A DNA stretch of 64,000 nt from a virus, in IMG/VR virus record IMGVR_UViG_3300030202_002990, positions 18,354 to 82,353 of that record; one strand, written 5' to 3'. The position numbers and the translations under genes are program-made. Below, piece by piece: positions 17,792 through 58,607 of this stretch; the stretch's first letter is position 1, and every line of letters starts with the position of its first letter. Under the pieces are notes generated by a model, which saw nothing but the letters and a program-made list of their open reading frames with translations, was not told the DNA's origin and searched no databases.

Positions 17792-19356
17792 TAAACATCC
17801 ACTTTTGTTAATATGTTACATATTCTTGCCCGTATGGTCTCCACTCCAGCCTCCCATGCAGCCATTGCTGGTTGATTTGTTGGGCCACTACTGATTGGGC
17901 CACTTGGGCCTGCACCAGTTGCTATACCTGTCAAACTAAGAATTGTGCTTCCTAATTCAACAAATGAATTACAAACACTATCCAATAAATCTGCTAACTC
18001 CTCACCATAAACCAAATGTTGTTCCTTAACATCATCACGACCTTTTATGTATATAACAGCTTCATCATTACTACCACCTATTTTAAAGTAACTTCCGTTG
18101 TCGGTGTATAATCCTGCACAATCATCAAGGTGAACATTTGCACCTTTACAACTTTCTAAATGTGCTTTATCATCAAGTGTTAAAAAAGATGGACATTCAC
18201 TTGACAAATATATTACATCAGGTCCTCCTTCTTTACCACCCTCTCCCAAATCTAATCTTGAATTACCAGGTGTTATCAAACTAATACCACCAGGTCTCAT
18301 ATCCATTGATGTGGCACCACCTGTATTAATATTCATTCCATCATCAGCATCGACTGTAAATGCTTTCTTGGTTGAGAATCCAATACCATCGTGACTAAAT
18401 CCAAGTATCTTTCCTCGTTTAGTATTGAATGTAATTCTATCTGAATTTATTGTTATTTGTTTACCACCAAGATTTGGTTGGTCATCTTCATGAAATGATG
18501 ACATATAAGAATGGTCATCAGCATTAGTTTCCTCTATATCAAGATTTACCTTTTGGTCTGTAGTCATCCATATTGAACTACCATCTGAATTTATGTTTTC
18601 TTCTGCAGGTTTGAAGTTTGTATCTTCAAGTTCTTGCCTTAAATTTTGTTCATCGAATAACTGAGCATCTGTTAGTTGTCCAACTCTCATCAATATGTTT
18701 GGAGAGTCTTGAGTAGATGTATCGTCTCCGTGTGCACCTTCAACTATTGCACTTCCAAATCTTATTGTATTACCAAATCTACCTTCAAGGGTCACATCAC
18801 CTTCTCTTGGTATTAATCTTCGTACTTTTTCATCATTACCAAAGTCTTTGTTTGCCTCAAAAAAGTCATATATGAAATCATCATCTATCATTTTTTGGTC
18901 TCTAAAACCACTTGTACCTGGTATTATATTTGCATTAACACTACCTAACATTGATACAACAGGTAAATAATAATGATTATTTAAATATTTTACAATAACC
19001 ACATGCTCATTTCTTAATGGCATCTTTGTCATGTTCATATCAAGAGGTTGATATATTTTTAATTTTGCAACAATCTTATCTTTTTCAGATTGGTGTGGTC
19101 TTGCCTTGATACAACCCAACAATCCCCAAATCTTTTCACCTTTGTCATTTTCAGGTAATTTTTCTTCGGAATCAAAAACTTCTAAGACTTCTGCTATTTC
19201 AAGTTCATAGTATTCCCAACCTTTGGGGTTTTGTGTATTTGACTTTACTATCTGTCTAACACGACCTTGTGTTGGCACTCCACTACCATCTTTATCATAT
19301 GTAGTTTTTTTAGGGCCCGAATCAGAATATTCCGAGCTTGGTGTCCAATGACCCAT
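17791..19356 (-). CDS. baseplate hub/central spike protein (gp5-like position)
   Basis: 521 residues. The N-terminal part (residues about 25-150: RVRQIVKS..., YYELEIAEVLEV, EHVVIVKYLNNHYYLPVVSM) looks like an OB-fold. It is followed by EGDVTLEGRFGNTIRFG, a common VgrG/gp5 motif leading into a beta-helical spike. The later part has alternating short strands (ITINSDRITFNTKRGKILGF, MNINTGG...) and a closing helix (ELADLLDSVCNSFVELGST). No lysozyme domain is visible, unlike T4 gp5. It probably forms the membrane-piercing spike. Confidence 0.7.
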   Translation of the reverse strand: MGHWTPSSEYSDSGPKKTTYDKDGSGVPTQGRVRQIVKSNTQNPKGWEYYELEIAEVLEVFDSEEKLPENDKGEKIWGLLGCIKARPHQSEKDKIVAKLKIYQPLDMNMTKMPLRNEHVVIVKYLNNHYYLPVVSMLGSVNANIIPGTSGFRDQKMIDDDFIYDFFEANKDFGNDEKVRRLIPREGDVTLEGRFGNTIRFGSAIVEGAHGDDTSTQDSPNILMRVGQLTDAQLFDEQNLRQELEDTNFKPAEENINSDGSSIWMTTDQKVNLDIEETNADDHSYMSSFHEDDQPNLGGKQITINSDRITFNTKRGKILGFSHDGIGFSTKKAFTVDADDGMNINTGGATSMDMRPGGISLITPGNSRLDLGEGGKEGGPDVIYLSSECPSFLTLDDKAHLESCKGANVHLDDCAGLYTDNGSYFKIGGSNDEAVIYIKGRDDVKEQHLVYGEELADLLDSVCNSFVELGSTILSLTGIATGAGPSGPISSGPTNQPAMAAWEAGVETIRARICNILTKVDV

Positions 19357-29221: not shown

Positions 29222-29239
29222 TGTTTTCTTGCTGTTTTG

Positions 29240-29652
29240 TGGAGGTGTGGGGATTCGAACCCCAGTCCTGTTTATTATTAATATTAAGTCATTCACAGTT
29301 TAGTTAGGTTACTACCCTCTGAGAAGTTACCTACAAACCACCAACTATTTTCTTGGATAGCTCCGTATGTTCTTTTATACTCATAACATGAGGAGTTGAT
29401 GTCTAACTTATTTTATGACCGAGTGTTAGACAACTCAGTAACTTATGCGTAAGCGTAAGTTGGTTGGTCATTCTGAACAGGAGTGACAAAGTTGTCAAAT
29501 CCCATTTCAGCATTGGCTAAATGCCAATCAATGTCCAACCCTTCAAGCGATTTATCGCCATTTGAGTTTCGTTGGGTTTTATTTAAGAGTTTACCCAAAC
29601 TCTACTGCACTTAAATATCAACCAATACCAGTCGATTTCCAAGTTCACCCCC
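29240..29652 (-). ncRNA. ssrA: tmRNA (transfer-messenger RNA)
   Basis: The tRNA-like ends pair: 5' GGGGGUG (29652-29646) with CACCUCC (29247-29241), followed by discriminator A. The T arm is present (GGGGTTCGAATCCCC on the minus strand). CCA is not encoded (the next bases are CA). The tag reading frame ends at the UAA at 29445-29443 and its last residues are TYAYA. A resume codon GCU at 29511 would give 22 tag residues, longer than the usual 8-15. Size is 413 bases. It rescues stalled ribosomes and marks products for degradation. Phage tmRNAs are rare but known. Confidence 0.88.
29443..29511 (-). other. tmRNA tag-peptide reading frame
   Basis: An open frame inside the tmRNA, GCU to UAA (22 residues if resumption is at 29511). 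The C-terminal end is TYAYA, with Ala last as in most tags, but it lacks the usual ALAA. A second Ala codon two codons upstream (GCC) could be the true resume site. Confidence 0.6.
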
Positions 29653-46259: not shown

Positions 46260-46283
46260 GGATATGTCAATTAAGACATATCC
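46260..46283 (-). other. 9-bp hairpin between MoxR gene and the following gene
   Basis: Perfect inverted repeat GGATATGTC / GACATATCC with a six-base loop that includes the MoxR stop codon region. There is no long T run (CCTTTAATT), so it may be a processing or pausing site rather than a terminator. Confidence 0.45.
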
Positions 46284-47434
46284 CCATTAGCGTTTTCAAT
46301 TTCTTCTTCGTTGAATAGGTCACTTGAACTACCATCATTCACATACTTCTGAACCAATTGTTTTACATAGGTTCTCTCGGATTCAACACCACCATCATTT
46401 GAGTATTGTGGGTAAACACAAACCTCGGCGGCTTCATCAAGACCAAACCCATCGTAGAGTAATCCAGCGATTTCTACAGAAGTACGAGTGGAAATACCAC
46501 TTGTGATTCTACCACTTTCACTATTAGACTCGACACGAGTAGAGGAAGCGATTTCTGAAACAGACTTCAACATTTCTGAATCAACATGAGGAAACATATA
46601 ATCAAGTAAACCATGTTCTTCATCAGAGTTCAACACATCCATCTCAACAGTTATGAATCTATCCATAAGTGCTTTATCCATAACACGAGTAGAAGTATAC
46701 TCATTACCGATGTTAGCGGTCGCGACGAATGTAACACCTTCTGCGACAGGTACGGTTTCTTGAGTAGTTGACTCATCAAGTCTCAAGTATCTCTGTCCAC
46801 TATCCAAAACGGTCATCAGAATGTTCCAAGCGTCTGGATGAGCTCTTGATAATTCATCAAGAAGAATCACAGCGTTTGGAGTCTGAATCGCTTTCACGAA
46901 TAGTGCTTCTGAAAAGTAAGTACCTTTCTTTTTATCGAAATGAGTGTTACCAATCAAAGATGAACGCGGGTCTTGTGTCGCTCCTAAGTTAAAGTAGAAG
47001 TCAGGTCGGTCAAGTGAATTAACCAATGACTTAGCTGCCATTGTTTTACCACAACCGGCGGGACCCGTCATCAAAATATTCTTACCACGAACAGCGGAAC
47101 GAACCAAGTACTTCCACTTCAATTCTTTCATCACCAAACCTTTAGGTTTAAGACTATAAGAACTATGGATGAAGTTAAGAACTTCAGCGTGGTCTGAAGG
47201 AACATCAACAGATGAAACATCAGGAACAATCACTTGTTCAAATTCACTCATTGGAACCTTCCACCAGTAAACTCTATCGTTTTTACCACTTCTTTTCTCA
47301 AGTGCCATTCCAGCTTCATAAGCTGACTTCCTTGTTGAAGTGATAATTTCAGAGGTAAGTTTGTTACCATCCTTATCGAAGGCGTTGAACCTATTACCAC
47401 TCTTTTCTATTTTTACTACAATTTTATTATTCAT
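46271..47434 (-). CDS. MoxR-type AAA+ ATPase
   Basis: 387 residues. Walker A GPAGCGKTMAAKS at about 122-134, Walker B AVILLDELSRA at about 190-200, sensor 1 TFVATANIGNEY at about 232-243, and ISTRTSVEIAGLLYDG at about 335. The N-terminal 90 residues are an added domain. MoxR-type ATPases act with VWA partners as chaperones or remodelers. The partner is probably the 710-residue VWA gene nearby (48337-50469). Its class A promoter is at 47492-47523. Confidence 0.85.
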   Translation of the reverse strand: MNNKIVVKIEKSGNRFNAFDKDGNKLTSEIITSTRKSAYEAGMALEKRSGKNDRVYWWKVPMSEFEQVIVPDVSSVDVPSDHAEVLNFIHSSYSLKPKGLVMKELKWKYLVRSAVRGKNILMTGPAGCGKTMAAKSLVNSLDRPDFYFNLGATQDPRSSLIGNTHFDKKKGTYFSEALFVKAIQTPNAVILLDELSRAHPDAWNILMTVLDSGQRYLRLDESTTQETVPVAEGVTFVATANIGNEYTSTRVMDKALMDRFITVEMDVLNSDEEHGLLDYMFPHVDSEMLKSVSEIASSTRVESNSESGRITSGISTRTSVEIAGLLYDGFGLDEAAEVCVYPQYSNDGGVESERTYVKQLVQKYVNDGSSSDLFNEEEIENANGDMS

Positions 47435-48152: not shown

Positions 48153-48337
48153 TAACTTCTCCAAAACCTTATTCTATAACTTGTTGTTGCGAATGCTTCC
48201 CAAGTACATTCTTTAAATTTACATATCCAATATTGTTCAAAATGTTTTCGAGTGGATGGAATCATTCTCCACCCACAAGGACACATTGGTGTATTTGATT
48301 TTCTATTGTGTAACCATTTTCTTATTTCAATAAACAT
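48152..48337 (-). CDS. small zinc-ribbon-like protein
   Basis: 61 residues with MCPCGWRM and WICKFKECTWEAF, giving two Cys pairs. It overlaps the membrane gene downstream by one base and abuts the VWA gene. Confidence 0.5.
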   Translation of the reverse strand: MFIEIRKWLHNRKSNTPMCPCGWRMIPSTRKHFEQYWICKFKECTWEAFATTSYRIRFWRS

Positions 48338-50469
48338 TACTTCTGTAAGAATTTTTTGTTCATAGTTTTTGAAACCGATAGAACAGAAGTTACATCAATA
48401 TACTCAGCGTCTTTACCATACATTCTGTTAAAGGCTTTTGAGTCATTTTCTCTACCCCAATTTGAATCACTTACGAAGTAAGACAATACTTTGATTCCAC
48501 GATTACGAATTTCTTTAACCATTTTCTTAGTGTGATTAAGTGCGACATCACCATGATAATCAACTTCGTTATTACCAAACATCGGCATCCCATCGGAAAA
48601 ATTTAGGAAGTAAGAATCTCTATCATTCGTAGTTGGTACAATTTCATTCATAATAGCTTCGTAACATAGACCTTCAGGAGTAGTTCCTGCGACATCAAGA
48701 TACTTGAACAAGTTTTTTACTTTGATAAAGGAATCTTTACGAGAATCATAGGCGATTAAGATAAGTGGTTTAGTTGTATCACCTCTACGAGTACGACCAT
48801 TACTACTTGTTTGAGTAGTACGAAAACTAACAACCACATCAACATTATTTACCATATCAATTGCTTTACATATAGCGACTACAGAAGTCATTGTGTTAAT
48901 CCACTTTGAACCACCCATTGAACCACTAGCGTCAACTGAGATATGAAGGAAAGCGTCTGAGTATTCTTCAATAAAACTATTAGAGAAAACCCTATCGTTA
49001 CCAAAACCTAACTCACTAATTAATCTCTTATCAATCTTTCCACTATCTAAACGAGTCCACTTTGTTTCACGAGACTCACCACGAACTTGTAACTTACGAC
49101 CTAAAACAGTACCAAGTCTAATACCTTTAGCGATGTAATCAGTATCATAACCACTTTCAACATTATCATCGTATCTATCACCTTTCCACTTTGATACCAT
49201 AGAAACAGTACCACTATCTACAAGTGATTTTGTAAACTCACGAACAACAATACACTTAGTACTTTGTTTCTTACCATCCCAAGTTGTAAGTCCATCACCA
49301 ACCTCAACATAACTCATACCACTTGACTCGATTGTTTGTAAGTCTTGTAGTTCTTTCTTGGTAACATTCTTCTTGGAAGTTTTACCACTCATGAACTCTT
49401 TTTGTTTCTTGATTGCGTTTTCAAGTTGTTTCTTCTGTGAATCAGAAAGTAAATTTTTATCTGTAGGAGTTTCAGTAACTTCTTCTTTAGGTTGAGATTT
49501 TGGTTGAGACTTGATTTCACCACTTTCAATTCCATCTAATAAGTCTTGGAAATCTTCATCAGAAATAGATTCATTAGAATCACCACTACCACCATTAGAA
49601 CTATCCATTCCACTACCACTATCTTGTGCTGGTTCATAAGACTCTTCACCATCTTCATTAATCTTAACTTCAGCGTCAGGTAGACTCTTAAAGATAGTAT
49701 GTAGTAATTCAGTAGCGACTTTAAAAGCGTCTTCGGTATCTTTAAGTCTTGAAATATTCTTAAGGTCAATAGTAGTCCAAATTTTACGAAGACCTTTAAG
49801 TGCTGAAAGATTAGTATTTTTGTTGGTGAGGTTAATGATACGAAACATATAAGAATCCATATTTTCATCAGTATACTCATCAGTACCAAGTGCTTTATCA
49901 ATTACTTTAGAATGAAAGTACTTGTCATACATTGAATGATAATAACCCTTGTAACCCGGCGAGGAAGTGAAGATATAGTTATCAATTCTTCTATCCTCTA
50001 CATAGTTAAGTAGGTTTTTTACATGACCTAATACATCTTGTCTTGAGTAACCTTTAGTTTCCCCAACATGGAATAACTCTTGTGGAGTATTATTTTCAAG
50101 GTCTTTCAAATAGTCAAAATCTGAAAGAACAATGTGTGAACCTTCATGAAGTGCTAATCCAACAGACGGGTCGAAAGACTTATCATCCATCTTAGCGGAG
50201 ATAACAACTTTTTTACCATCGGTGTAAGAATCACCACTTGATTTGAAAGTTACAGGAATATCTTTTTGAGTAACGATACGAACAAAGTTACCGATTGCTC
50301 TTCTGTAAGAACTAAGAGCGATTAAGTCTGTTTTTGGTTTGACATCCTCCTCATCAAAGATAGAAGTTTTCCTATCAAAATCAAATTCATTGTCCATCCA
50401 AAAAGACGAATAATTATTGGAGTTAGAAATTAAACTCCGTGAAGTATTGAAGTGTTTTAAGTTTTTCAT
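48337..50469 (-). CDS. VWA-domain protein with HExxH-like motif, partner of MoxR
   Basis: 710 residues from ATG 50469 (GAGGAAAT before it). The C-terminal VWA domain has the MIDAS motif HISVDASGSMGGSKW at about 495-509 and TPEGLCYEAI. An N-terminal stretch has VGLALHEGSHIVLSDF at about 95-110, in which HEGSH matches the HExxH metallopeptidase motif. An acidic Ser/Gly-rich linker lies near 280-350. It may combine remodelling with proteolysis under MoxR control. It has a class A promoter. Confidence 0.75.
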   Translation of the reverse strand: MKNLKHFNTSRSLISNSNNYSSFWMDNEFDFDRKTSIFDEEDVKPKTDLIALSSYRRAIGNFVRIVTQKDIPVTFKSSGDSYTDGKKVVISAKMDDKSFDPSVGLALHEGSHIVLSDFDYLKDLENNTPQELFHVGETKGYSRQDVLGHVKNLLNYVEDRRIDNYIFTSSPGYKGYYHSMYDKYFHSKVIDKALGTDEYTDENMDSYMFRIINLTNKNTNLSALKGLRKIWTTIDLKNISRLKDTEDAFKVATELLHTIFKSLPDAEVKINEDGEESYEPAQDSGSGMDSSNGGSGDSNESISDEDFQDLLDGIESGEIKSQPKSQPKEEVTETPTDKNLLSDSQKKQLENAIKKQKEFMSGKTSKKNVTKKELQDLQTIESSGMSYVEVGDGLTTWDGKKQSTKCIVVREFTKSLVDSGTVSMVSKWKGDRYDDNVESGYDTDYIAKGIRLGTVLGRKLQVRGESRETKWTRLDSGKIDKRLISELGFGNDRVFSNSFIEEYSDAFLHISVDASGSMGGSKWINTMTSVVAICKAIDMVNNVDVVVSFRTTQTSSNGRTRRGDTTKPLILIAYDSRKDSFIKVKNLFKYLDVAGTTPEGLCYEAIMNEIVPTTNDRDSYFLNFSDGMPMFGNNEVDYHGDVALNHTKKMVKEIRNRGIKVLSYFVSDSNWGRENDSKAFNRMYGKDAEYIDVTSVLSVSKTMNKKFLQK

Positions 50470-50491
50470 ATTTCCTCTGTTTCTCATATAA

Positions 50492-50610: not shown

Positions 50611-50874
50611 CTAACGAAGTCGACCTTCGTGTATTGAATCATCTATAGTCTTAGTAACCTCAAATGTACTATTAGGAAACCTACCTACATTTAACTTACT
50701 GAATACTTTTAAGTTATCATTTACAAATACTTCAAATGCACCACCACTTGATTCTACTAAGTTAATTTCTAATACATCAAATGTACCTTCATAATGATTC
50801 TGTAATTCATCTCGTAAACTACGAGCTCTTGGTTCATAGTTTCATTGTGTACAATAATGAATATCTATTTTCAT
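50611..50874 (-). CDS. SelW/Rdx-like selenoprotein candidate (in-frame UGA)
   Basis: 87 codons reading through UGA at codon 11. Its ATG (50874) overlaps the stop of the upstream gene (ATGA), fixing the frame. The first 10 residues end YCTQ, so with the UGA the motif is C-x-x-U, the redox site of SelW. After the UGA come NYEPRARSLRDELQ, FDVLEIN, SSGGAFEVFVNDNL, VFSKLNVGRFP and a final helix, which is the Rdx/SelW layout. A stem AACUAUGA / UCGUAGUU with a nine-base loop starts just after the UGA (50841-50817), as bacterial SECIS elements do. UGA is a normal stop in this genome. Confidence 0.72.
50817..50844 (-). promoter_or_regulatory. SECIS-like stem-loop after in-frame UGA
   Basis: UGA at 50844-50842 is followed at once by an 8-bp stem (one G-U) 50841-50834 with 50824-50817 around the loop ACCAAGAGC. 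The position and size agree with a bacterial SECIS, but the E. coli distance to the apical loop differs somewhat. Confidence 0.55.
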
Positions 50875-51275
50875 CTGTATTCTCCATACTTTGTATCTCT
50901 ACCATACCATTCAGAATATGTTACATCGAATGGTAATCTAAACATTAAATAATCCTTATTATCAATATTGAAAATAGTTCCTTGTTCATGTGGTTGTATC
51001 ATCTCGTGTGCCGCTCTTTCTTTCAATATCTCAATTGTTTCTTCTTTTTGTATTTCCAACATATGTCTAAAACTTTGAGGGTGTACTATTTCTATTTCCA
51101 TATGACAGAAATTATCACCAGATGGAACCAATCTATATGGTACAATCTCAGGTAATACTTTTACTATTTGACCATTGAGTGGCTGTAGTAAAACAAATAA
51201 TCCAATCAATATCCAAACTATAACTGACCACCATTTAGGTAGTATATTAAAATCTATTTTCTTTAACTTATCCAT
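50871..51275 (-). CDS. membrane-anchored protein, unknown
   Basis: 134 residues. One N-terminal membrane helix (VIVWILIGLFVLLQP) precedes a soluble domain. The selenoprotein start overlaps its stop, so the two are co-translated. No family recognised. Confidence 0.45.
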   Translation of the reverse strand: MDKLKKIDFNILPKWWSVIVWILIGLFVLLQPLNGQIVKVLPEIVPYRLVPSGDNFCHMEIEIVHPQSFRHMLEIQKEETIEILKERAAHEMIQPHEQGTIFNIDNKDYLMFRLPFDVTYSEWYGRDTKYGEYR

Positions 51276-53988: not shown

Positions 53989-54351
53989 CTATACCGAGAA
54001 TGATGTTCCACATCCACAAGTTCTATTAGCTTGAGGATTTGTGAATTTAAAACCACCATTTAAAAGGTCATCACTATAATCTATTTGAGTACCAATTAAA
54101 TAAACAAAACTACTAAATGGTATGATTAATTCTAATTCACCCTCTTTGATTATCTTGTCTTTTTCATTGAGTTCCCTATCAAATTTAATCATCTTGTAGT
54201 TCATTCCACTACAACCACCACCTTCAACACTAAACTCAACTTGTTTGTAACCGACTTGTAATAATCTATTTATTGCACTCTCTGTGATTTCAATATCTTT
54301 AAGTTCAGGTACTTCGAAATTTTCTTGTTCTACTAAATCTCTAGCATCCAT
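53989..54351 (-). CDS. IscA/ErpA-like iron-sulfur carrier
   Basis: 120 residues with VEGGGCSGMNYKM (first Cys) and C-terminal NRTCGCGTSFSV (two Cys), the A-type carrier signature, and the intervening IDYSDDLLNGGFKFTNPQA. It delivers Fe-S clusters. It would fit the ferredoxin in the baseplate operon or the Fe-S demand of other phage enzymes. Confidence 0.88.
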   Translation of the reverse strand: MDARDLVEQENFEVPELKDIEITESAINRLLQVGYKQVEFSVEGGGCSGMNYKMIKFDRELNEKDKIIKEGELELIIPFSSFVYLIGTQIDYSDDLLNGGFKFTNPQANRTCGCGTSFSV

Positions 54352-55606: not shown

Positions 55607-55999
55607 TTAATTATCTTCAACGAAATCATGTTGTCCATTATTTAATGCCTTTTTTGGGTCGTATTCGTTTCCGTGTATATCACGAACAGTTTTATCCCAC
55701 TTTGGATACCATATTAATTCTACCTTATTACCACTTGGGTCATCTATGTATCTACTAATTGTATGGTCACGGTGGTACAACCAATTACTACCATTACCTT
55801 GTATCCCATCTATTTCAAATGCTATATGGTATGGGTGTTCATCTTCAACCACAAGGGCTAATTTAATGTTACCAAATTGTAACATAGCCCAAGAATCATC
55901 TGAATAGATAATAGAACATCCATAATTTTCTACATACCAATCAACTGATTCTTTTATGTTATTTACTTGTAGTGCTATATGGTCTATATTTTTTTTCAT
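55607..55999 (-). CDS. VOC/glyoxalase-fold protein
   Basis: 130 residues with IDHIALQVNNIKESVDWY, LALVVEDEHPYHIAFEID and HTISRYIDDPSGNKVELIW (quoted in parts), the two beta-alpha-beta-beta-beta modules of the VOC fold. His and Glu metal ligands are plausible (H8, H and E at the end). Substrate unknown. It overlaps the UV endonuclease by four bases. Confidence 0.75.
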   Translation of the reverse strand: MKKNIDHIALQVNNIKESVDWYVENYGCSIIYSDDSWAMLQFGNIKLALVVEDEHPYHIAFEIDGIQGNGSNWLYHRDHTISRYIDDPSGNKVELIWYPKWDKTVRDIHGNEYDPKKALNNGQHDFVEDN

Positions 56000-56976
56000 A
56001 AATATGCTCTTGGTGAAGGTAAATCACCATAGTGGTCTACCAAATGTATTGACTTATACTTATCTACGGCCAGTTCCTTATGTTTAGCTTCAATCATAAC
56101 ATCAATGTCATTACCATAATTATCAATGAAGTCGTAAACATAATCAGAATGTGCCTGTGGTCTAATCTTTGAATCTTCTTGTTCCTTACTACGACTCTCC
56201 GAATAATGAACAACTGGCGTAATACCTTTGGGCCATGTTGAGATAGCCATTTCAAGTGCTTCTTGTTCTGACATATCACCAGTACAAAACTTGTGGTGGT
56301 GATAATCAAATACAATAGGTACACCAACTTTTTTGTAAATACCTTCGTATAAATCTTTTACACTATACATAGAAGCTTTGTCATCATTCTCTAATGTCAA
56401 TCTACTACTAACACTCTCAGGTAGTCTTGGAAAGTTTTTAACAAATCGTTTCATACTTGCTTCTTTGTCCCCATAAGCTCCACCCAAGTGAATATTAATT
56501 TTGTTGTATGGTGTTCTTGATAATCCCATCATATCAAACTCATCTCCGTGAATCGTCAAGTCTTTAATACAATTATCTACCACATGGTCTTTAGGACTTA
56601 CCAATACATTGAAAGGACCAGGATGTGAAGTCAACCTCACATTATGTGTTTTTGCCATTGTACCAGCTGAATGAAAGTATAATTTAATTTCATCCAAGTC
56701 TTTCAAATCTTCCCAATCATATTCTGTCTTCCACGGTGCCAGTCCACTACTCATTCGGTAGAAATCATAACCTTCTAAAATATTCCAACTAATAATTCCA
56801 TTCAAGTCTTTAACATTTTGTAAAGTCAATTCACTTGCATAATCTACACCTTTTGTATCAAATGTTCTACGAATCATCGTTCTACCAGTTGTGATTGGTT
56901 GAACTCCTTTTTCCTTACCACCATACTCTTGTGGATAGGATAGTTTCATACTAATACATGCATAACCATATCTCAT
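55996..56976 (-). CDS. uvsE: UV damage endonuclease (UvsE/UVDE)
   Basis: 326 residues starting MRYGYACISM and following the UVDE TIM barrel: RLTSHPGPFNVLVSP (metal His), INIHLGGAYGDKEASMKRF (quoted in part), LTLENDDKASMYSVKDLY, VFDYHHHKFC and VHYSESR. Metal ligands of the family are visible. It nicks DNA 5' to UV photoproducts. Suggests a sunlit marine host environment. Confidence 0.92.
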   Translation of the reverse strand: MRYGYACISMKLSYPQEYGGKEKGVQPITTGRTMIRRTFDTKGVDYASELTLQNVKDLNGIISWNILEGYDFYRMSSGLAPWKTEYDWEDLKDLDEIKLYFHSAGTMAKTHNVRLTSHPGPFNVLVSPKDHVVDNCIKDLTIHGDEFDMMGLSRTPYNKINIHLGGAYGDKEASMKRFVKNFPRLPESVSSRLTLENDDKASMYSVKDLYEGIYKKVGVPIVFDYHHHKFCTGDMSEQEALEMAISTWPKGITPVVHYSESRSKEQEDSKIRPQAHSDYVYDFIDNYGNDIDVMIEAKHKELAVDKYKSIHLVDHYGDLPSPRAYL

Positions 56977-58524: not shown

Positions 58525-58536
58525 CTATTTTCCTTG

Positions 58537-58607
58537 AGTCGTGGGTGAGATTTGAACTCACATACACGGGTTTGCAATCCGCTACCTAACCATTCGGACA
58601 CCACGAC
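58537..58607 (-). tRNA. tRNA-Cys (GCA)
   Basis: Acceptor GTCGTGG pairs with CCACGAC, T arm GTGAG TTCAAAT CTCAC, anticodon loop TTGCAAA with anticodon GCA, and discriminator T as is usual for Cys. One mismatch in the anticodon stem. CCA is not encoded. Confidence 0.82.

Follow-up and report, generated by a model that had tools for sequence, protein, structure and literature searches.

A phage gene for a likely selenoprotein W, with a conserved in-frame UGA and a covarying SECIS-like hairpin

A gene on the minus strand of an environmental virus record is, in our judgment very probably, a phage selenoprotein W (SelW), decoded by the selenocysteine (Sec) machinery of the host with the help of a SECIS element that the phage itself supplies; Sec insertion, the identity of the host and the function of the protein are inferred. 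The basis for this attribution is the protein family, the predicted fold, the conservation of the UGA, the selection acting on the gene, a covarying hairpin, the phage context, and the failure to find selA, selB or tRNA-Sec on any contig examined for them. The stretch of DNA analysed, called the window here, comprises 64,000 nucleotides (positions 18,354 to 82,353) of the 82 kb IMG/VR record IMGVR_UViG_3300030202_002990.

The selW-like coding sequence lies at positions 50611-50874 of the window, and its location on the minus strand had gone unstated in the sequence-only reading that first pointed to it. That reading derived the frame from an ATGA overlap with the upstream gene and counted 87 codons if the UGA at codon 11 is read, and this was borne out. 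The upstream gene (50871-51275, minus strand) encodes 134 amino acids, belongs to no family, and has UGA as its own stop. When 50874-50611 is translated, the product is MKIDIHYCTQUNYEPRARSLRDELQNHYEGTFDVLEINLVESSGGAFEVFVNDNLKVFSKLNVGRFPNSTFEVTKTIDDSIHEGRLR, with the C-x-x-U motif present, as had been claimed, as C8-T-Q-U11. The in-frame TGA occupies 50842-50844 (minus strand), and 76 open codons follow it before the TAG stop at 50613-50611. A GGAG at 50882-50885 (minus strand), 7-10 nt 5' of the start codon, is the likely ribosome-binding site, and the same GGAG precedes the gene in relatives L002 and L017.

Translated with Sec at the UGA, the frame scores 69.3 bits (E 3.4e-19) against the Rdx family (PF10262), above the Pfam gathering cut-off of 22.6 bits, and a search reading through stops found no other Rdx match across the whole 82 kb record. 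The AlphaFold model (45 relatives; pLDDT 95.8, pTM 0.85) is predicted to follow the order E-H-E-E-E-H of a thioredoxin-like fold, in which C8-T-Q-U11 comes after the strand formed by residues 2-8. The best PDB matches of the predicted structure are the SelW-related entries 2fa8, 2obk, 2ojl and 2p0g (TM about 0.8), with E about 1e-6 for 2fa8 and 2obk, and the viral sequence profile matches both 2fa8 and mouse SelW, 2npb. Codon 11 aligns to Sec in at least 108 bacterial genes and to Cys in 2fa8. Both structures are like the phage protein in fold and sequence; however, 2fa8 (Agrobacterium Atu0228) is cellular and has Cys at the Sec position. Placement in the SelW/Rdx family, which the sequence-only reading had proposed along with an Rdx layout for the codons after the UGA, is therefore supported by profile, sequence and predicted structure alike.

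The gene is carried by at least 33 IMG/VR contigs including the window, encoding 22 distinct proteins, and the UGA is at the Sec site in all 33 of these. The nearest relative, L002, is 83% identical and has the same UGA. Searching with the DNA pattern C-x-x-UGA-x-Y-x-P-R-A yielded 20 convincing viral contigs, L002 included, while a profile scan that relied on other conserved stretches (FSKxxxRFP) found 27 loci, with UGA in every locus that includes the site. A second viral branch, YCTSUGYLNQALSLRES, has kept the UGA and lost the PRA motif. Two more contigs, L224 among them, came from a scan for the SECIS core alone as a DNA pattern, and every core match with a correctly spaced TGA proved to be a SelW gene. 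A second group of core matches, with the TGA two bases closer, was rejected, as it belongs to a conserved gene in another frame, and candidates from a CxxU-x-W pattern were chance matches only. Cysteine was sought in the same flanking motif as TGY, with zero matches in viral contigs, and the wider profile search found no Cys form in viruses either. No relative, then, has TGY in place of the UGA at codon 11, nor does any lose the frame after codon 10, and either outcome would have refuted the original suggestion. Sec is thus the residue predicted at every examined site of the viral SelW clade, although its insertion is inferred from the codon and not observed.

Two sets of related open reading frames depart from this pattern. 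In contig L035 (IMGVR_UViG_3300031606_000072), a frame opens like SelW, with a UGA and the hairpin CAGAA-AGUCU-UUCUG, but its C-terminus is divergent and gives no Rdx match; the gene is possibly frameshifted or a different selenoprotein. In L172, part of relative G002, two frames 3' of the phage selW (5261-5584 and 5587-5958) have SelW-like starts (IEYNKKYKKHALELEELL...), lack CxxU and match no Pfam family; these may be decayed or repurposed Rdx paralogues.

Gene callers stop this gene at codon 10, and among the predicted viral structures of BFVD none matched its fold at E<=0.001, the best being thioredoxins. Such results might be taken to mean that the gene is decayed, with the UGA a nonsense mutation, or that only a 10-residue peptide is made. 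Selection after the UGA refutes this reading, which we consider hardly tenable: between the window and L002, dN is 0.088 and dS 1.07 (NG86; dN/dS 0.082), and changes by codon position number 8/5/29, so that the third position accounts for 29 of 42. Moreover, viral proteins down to about 40% identity still fall into one clade with the UGA conserved. Because the same UGA frame is kept in 33 viral contigs, and dN/dS is this low between the window and L002, the UGA is neither a chance occurrence nor a sequencing error. The lack of a BFVD match fits instead with the truncation by gene callers, which would also explain how the gene was missed in the INPHARED translations, where no isolated phage was found to carry it.

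Further support for a selenoprotein comes from the sequence downstream of the UGA. The window contains a bacterial-type SECIS hairpin of 15 nt, CUCGU-AGUUU-ACGAG, at 50811-50825 (minus strand), with 5 bp and a closing A-U. It spans 19-33 nt downstream of the first UGA base, and its loop, AGUUU, starts 21 nt after the UGA and has the conserved G in second position. In 13 viral sequences, the hairpin was 97.4% paired with 12 two-sided changes, and its covariation score of 0.562 compared with 0.177 in shuffles, none of 500 being as high, and with at most 0.231 in slid controls. When repeated with 21 sequences, pairing was 97.6% and again no shuffle in 500 exceeded the observed covariation. Part of this signal is synonymous, as the third bases of two Leu codons switch together (CTC...TTG or CTT...TTA); CTC is rare here, making up 12 of the 559 Leu codons counted for the phage. 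When codons were reshuffled synonymously, the full hairpin survived 131 times in 20000 for the window and in about 3% of trials for relatives; the real viral sequences have it in 18 of 21 cases. In at least 108 bacterial Sec-SelW genes the same positions pair as well, and the loop, which may be GGUCU, AGUUU, AGUCU or another sequence, contains a G.

The stem proposed in the sequence-only reading was a different one, starting immediately after the UGA. It is the lowest-energy fold in the window, yet in relatives it is only 73.5% paired, no better than shuffles, and it was discarded as the SECIS; the covariation expected of a functional stem is found slightly further downstream, in the hairpin at 50825-50811. 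Energy excepted, the loop, stem and spacing of this hairpin agree with the published model of bacterial SECIS elements, which allows 16-37 nt from UGA to loop and applies a search filter of MFE <= -7.5 kcal/mol (PMC13188914). We acknowledge that the hairpin alone is weak, at -4.5 kcal/mol in the window and from -2.6 to -5.2 kcal/mol across sequences. Longer segments of the window reach an MFE of -7.3 (42 nt) to -7.9 (52 nt), but for another pairing that is not conserved, and this competing hairpin comes out of the prediction as slightly more stable than the SECIS-like one.

An open UGA in the selW-like frame could also be accounted for if UGA had been reassigned from stop to sense throughout this phage. 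As the sequence-only reading had already argued, however, UGA serves elsewhere as a normal stop: it ends 20 of 98 minus-strand ORFs (about 20%), the overlapping upstream gene included. In addition, a screen against relatives for further conserved in-frame UGAs returned mostly noncoding-frame noise and no second candidate, and no further UGA in a coding frame emerged from it as conserved. General reassignment is thereby refuted, and we give it next to no credence.

As for the machinery needed to decode the UGA as Sec, no tRNA-Sec over the cut-off was found in 28 viral records, and neither SelA nor SelB in 14 viral records (selD was outside this search). Weak sub-cut-off matches to RF01852 occur in relatives; the three inspected in G002 and G003 were tRNA-Tyr, tRNA-Glu and tRNA-Cys. 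As the records are metagenomic and partly fragments, this does not prove that the phages lack Sec genes. Nevertheless, with selA, selB and tRNA-Sec all undetected in the phage records examined for them, decoding is most likely performed by host machinery, and the dependence on the host suggested at the outset is to that extent supported, even though the host remains unidentified. Among 8 bacterial Sec-SelW genomes tested, SelB was over the cut-off in 7 and tRNA-Sec in 6.

A tRNA-Cys (GCA) gene is present in the window at 58536-58607 (minus strand), and tRNA-Cys genes were also seen in relatives L170 (63-136) and L171 (1076-1150); their recurrence in selW-carrying phages may be coincidental or may relate to thiol-rich proteins. 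These tRNAs lend some weight to the idea that the UGA is read by near-cognate decoding as an ordinary amino acid, Cys through the phage tRNA or else Trp, with no involvement of selenium. We find this unlikely. The one-step change to TGY has occurred in none of the 33 contigs, the covarying hairpin at SECIS distance would be left without a role, and the UGA and hairpin are shared by close homologues in bacteria whose genomes have SelB and/or tRNA-Sec.

Because SelW-Sec is common in marine bacteria (PMC2398784), it is also conceivable that host DNA was mis-filed as viral and that the gene is an ordinary bacterial selW. This possibility appears very slight, as selW is set among phage genes both in the 82 kb record and in relatives of 216 kb, 132 kb and 131 kb, and the viral copies group in a separate clade. 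The 82 kb record has genes for a baseplate wedge protein, a primase and a holin, and terminases are present in the 216 kb (G002) and 132 kb (G010) relatives. The baseplate and VWA proteins are closest to those of Microcystis phage Mel-JY01 and of an uncultured 484 kb phage, the baseplate protein also to those of Flavobacterium phages. Downstream of selW in the window are a VWA/CobT_C-like protein (48337-50487, minus strand) and a MoxR-type AAA ATPase (46271-47434, minus strand), both of which are neighbours in L002 and L174 too; in L174 the MoxR, SelW and VWA neighbourhood is the same as in the window and the order is different.

An IscA/HesB-like Fe-S protein gene (PF01521) lies 3 kb from selW in the window (53989-54351, minus strand) and also near selW in L176, where the gene order from IscA-like to SelW is kept. 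In G002, selW (L172) is preceded by IscS/NifS-like, NifU-like and Fe-S assembly (PF01883) genes (543-2753) and followed by a glutamine synthetase. Such neighbours suggest a link of selW with sulfur or Fe-S chemistry, which has not been shown. Other genes recorded in this phage include a tmRNA (Rfam RF00023, 85 bits) at 29237-29652 (minus strand), also seen in relative L048 (13919-14328) and not reported by ARAGORN, and a UV-damage endonuclease UvdE (204 bits) at 55996-56976 (minus strand).

In a tree with 104 bacterial Sec-SelW proteins taken from among the matches listed, the 22 viral proteins formed one clade (98/98) adjoining alphaproteobacterial Sec-SelW (97/90). When 385 alphaproteobacterial genomes contributed a further 24 Sec and 6 Cys forms, the viral clade still held together and fell outside that of the alphaproteobacteria. 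The tree is based on about 70 alignment columns, its root is not fixed and the bacterial sample is incomplete, and for these reasons the donor of the viral selW is not settled. Alphaproteobacteria were considered as the host and set aside: although their Sec-SelW is sister to the phage clade, the latter does not nest within it, and the SECIS loop differs, being AGUUU in the phage and usually CGUGC in these bacteria. The nearest isolated phages (of Microcystis and Flavobacterium) and uncultured phages are too distant to decide the host.

SelW-like selenoproteins of bacteria (PF10262, CxxU) were described in the Sargasso Sea and GOS selenoproteomes (PMC1088965, PMC2398784). They share with the phage protein the fold, the CxxU, the in-frame UGA and a hairpin with a loop G at the same place downstream; the phage copies differ in residing on contigs without detected selA, selB or tRNA-Sec and in forming a separate clade (98/98). 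GOS contained 427 Sec and 56 Cys forms of SelW (PMC2398784), whereas no Cys form was found in viruses. Predicted tRNA-Sec genes have been noted in Basilisk-like phages (PMC6145125) and in huge wastewater phages (PMC10747093). These share with our phages a connection to selenocysteine, but the parts of those reports available to us describe the tRNA without a selenoprotein, the reverse of a selenoprotein without a detected tRNA here. RNR II, plastocyanin and Cu-Zn SOD were the only families in which a survey of marine trace-element proteins met viral sequences frequently; the others that it covered had few or none (PMC9402790). Phages and viruses go unmentioned in the prokaryotic selenoprotein papers checked, and the open-access literature searched, bioRxiv preprints excluded, yielded no previous account of a selenoprotein gene naturally encoded by a phage, so that the impression of phage selenoproteins as little described holds within that scope, although a report elsewhere is possible. 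The family is a known one, and its carrier, a phage, is new.

During infection, a host SelB-GTP-Sec-tRNA(Sec) complex would bind the hairpin at 50825-50811, and Sec would be inserted at UGA codon 11 to give a thioredoxin-like protein of 87 residues whose redox centre is C-x-x-U. In such a scheme, the phage would contribute the gene and the SECIS, and the host SelA, SelB, SelC and SelD. The most probable function of the protein is that of a thiol/selenol oxidoreductase maintaining a target, of phage or host, in its reduced state; the redox activity is inferred, and the role is possibly linked to Fe-S or thiol chemistry.

As the selW gene works only if the UGA is read as Sec, it is most likely that these viruses rely on their bacterial hosts for selenium decoding. 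We lean, if only a little, toward the view that a large environmental phage lineage keeps an obligatory-Sec protein without Sec machinery of its own, and that its function, and perhaps its host range, are tied to Sec-decoding bacteria and to the supply of selenium. If so, part of the abundant marine SelW pool that has been counted as bacterial would be viral. The gene offers a direct handle on whether phages exploit the selenium decoding of their hosts, on host prediction, which could be confined to Sec-decoding bacteria, and on the viral share of the marine selenoproteome.
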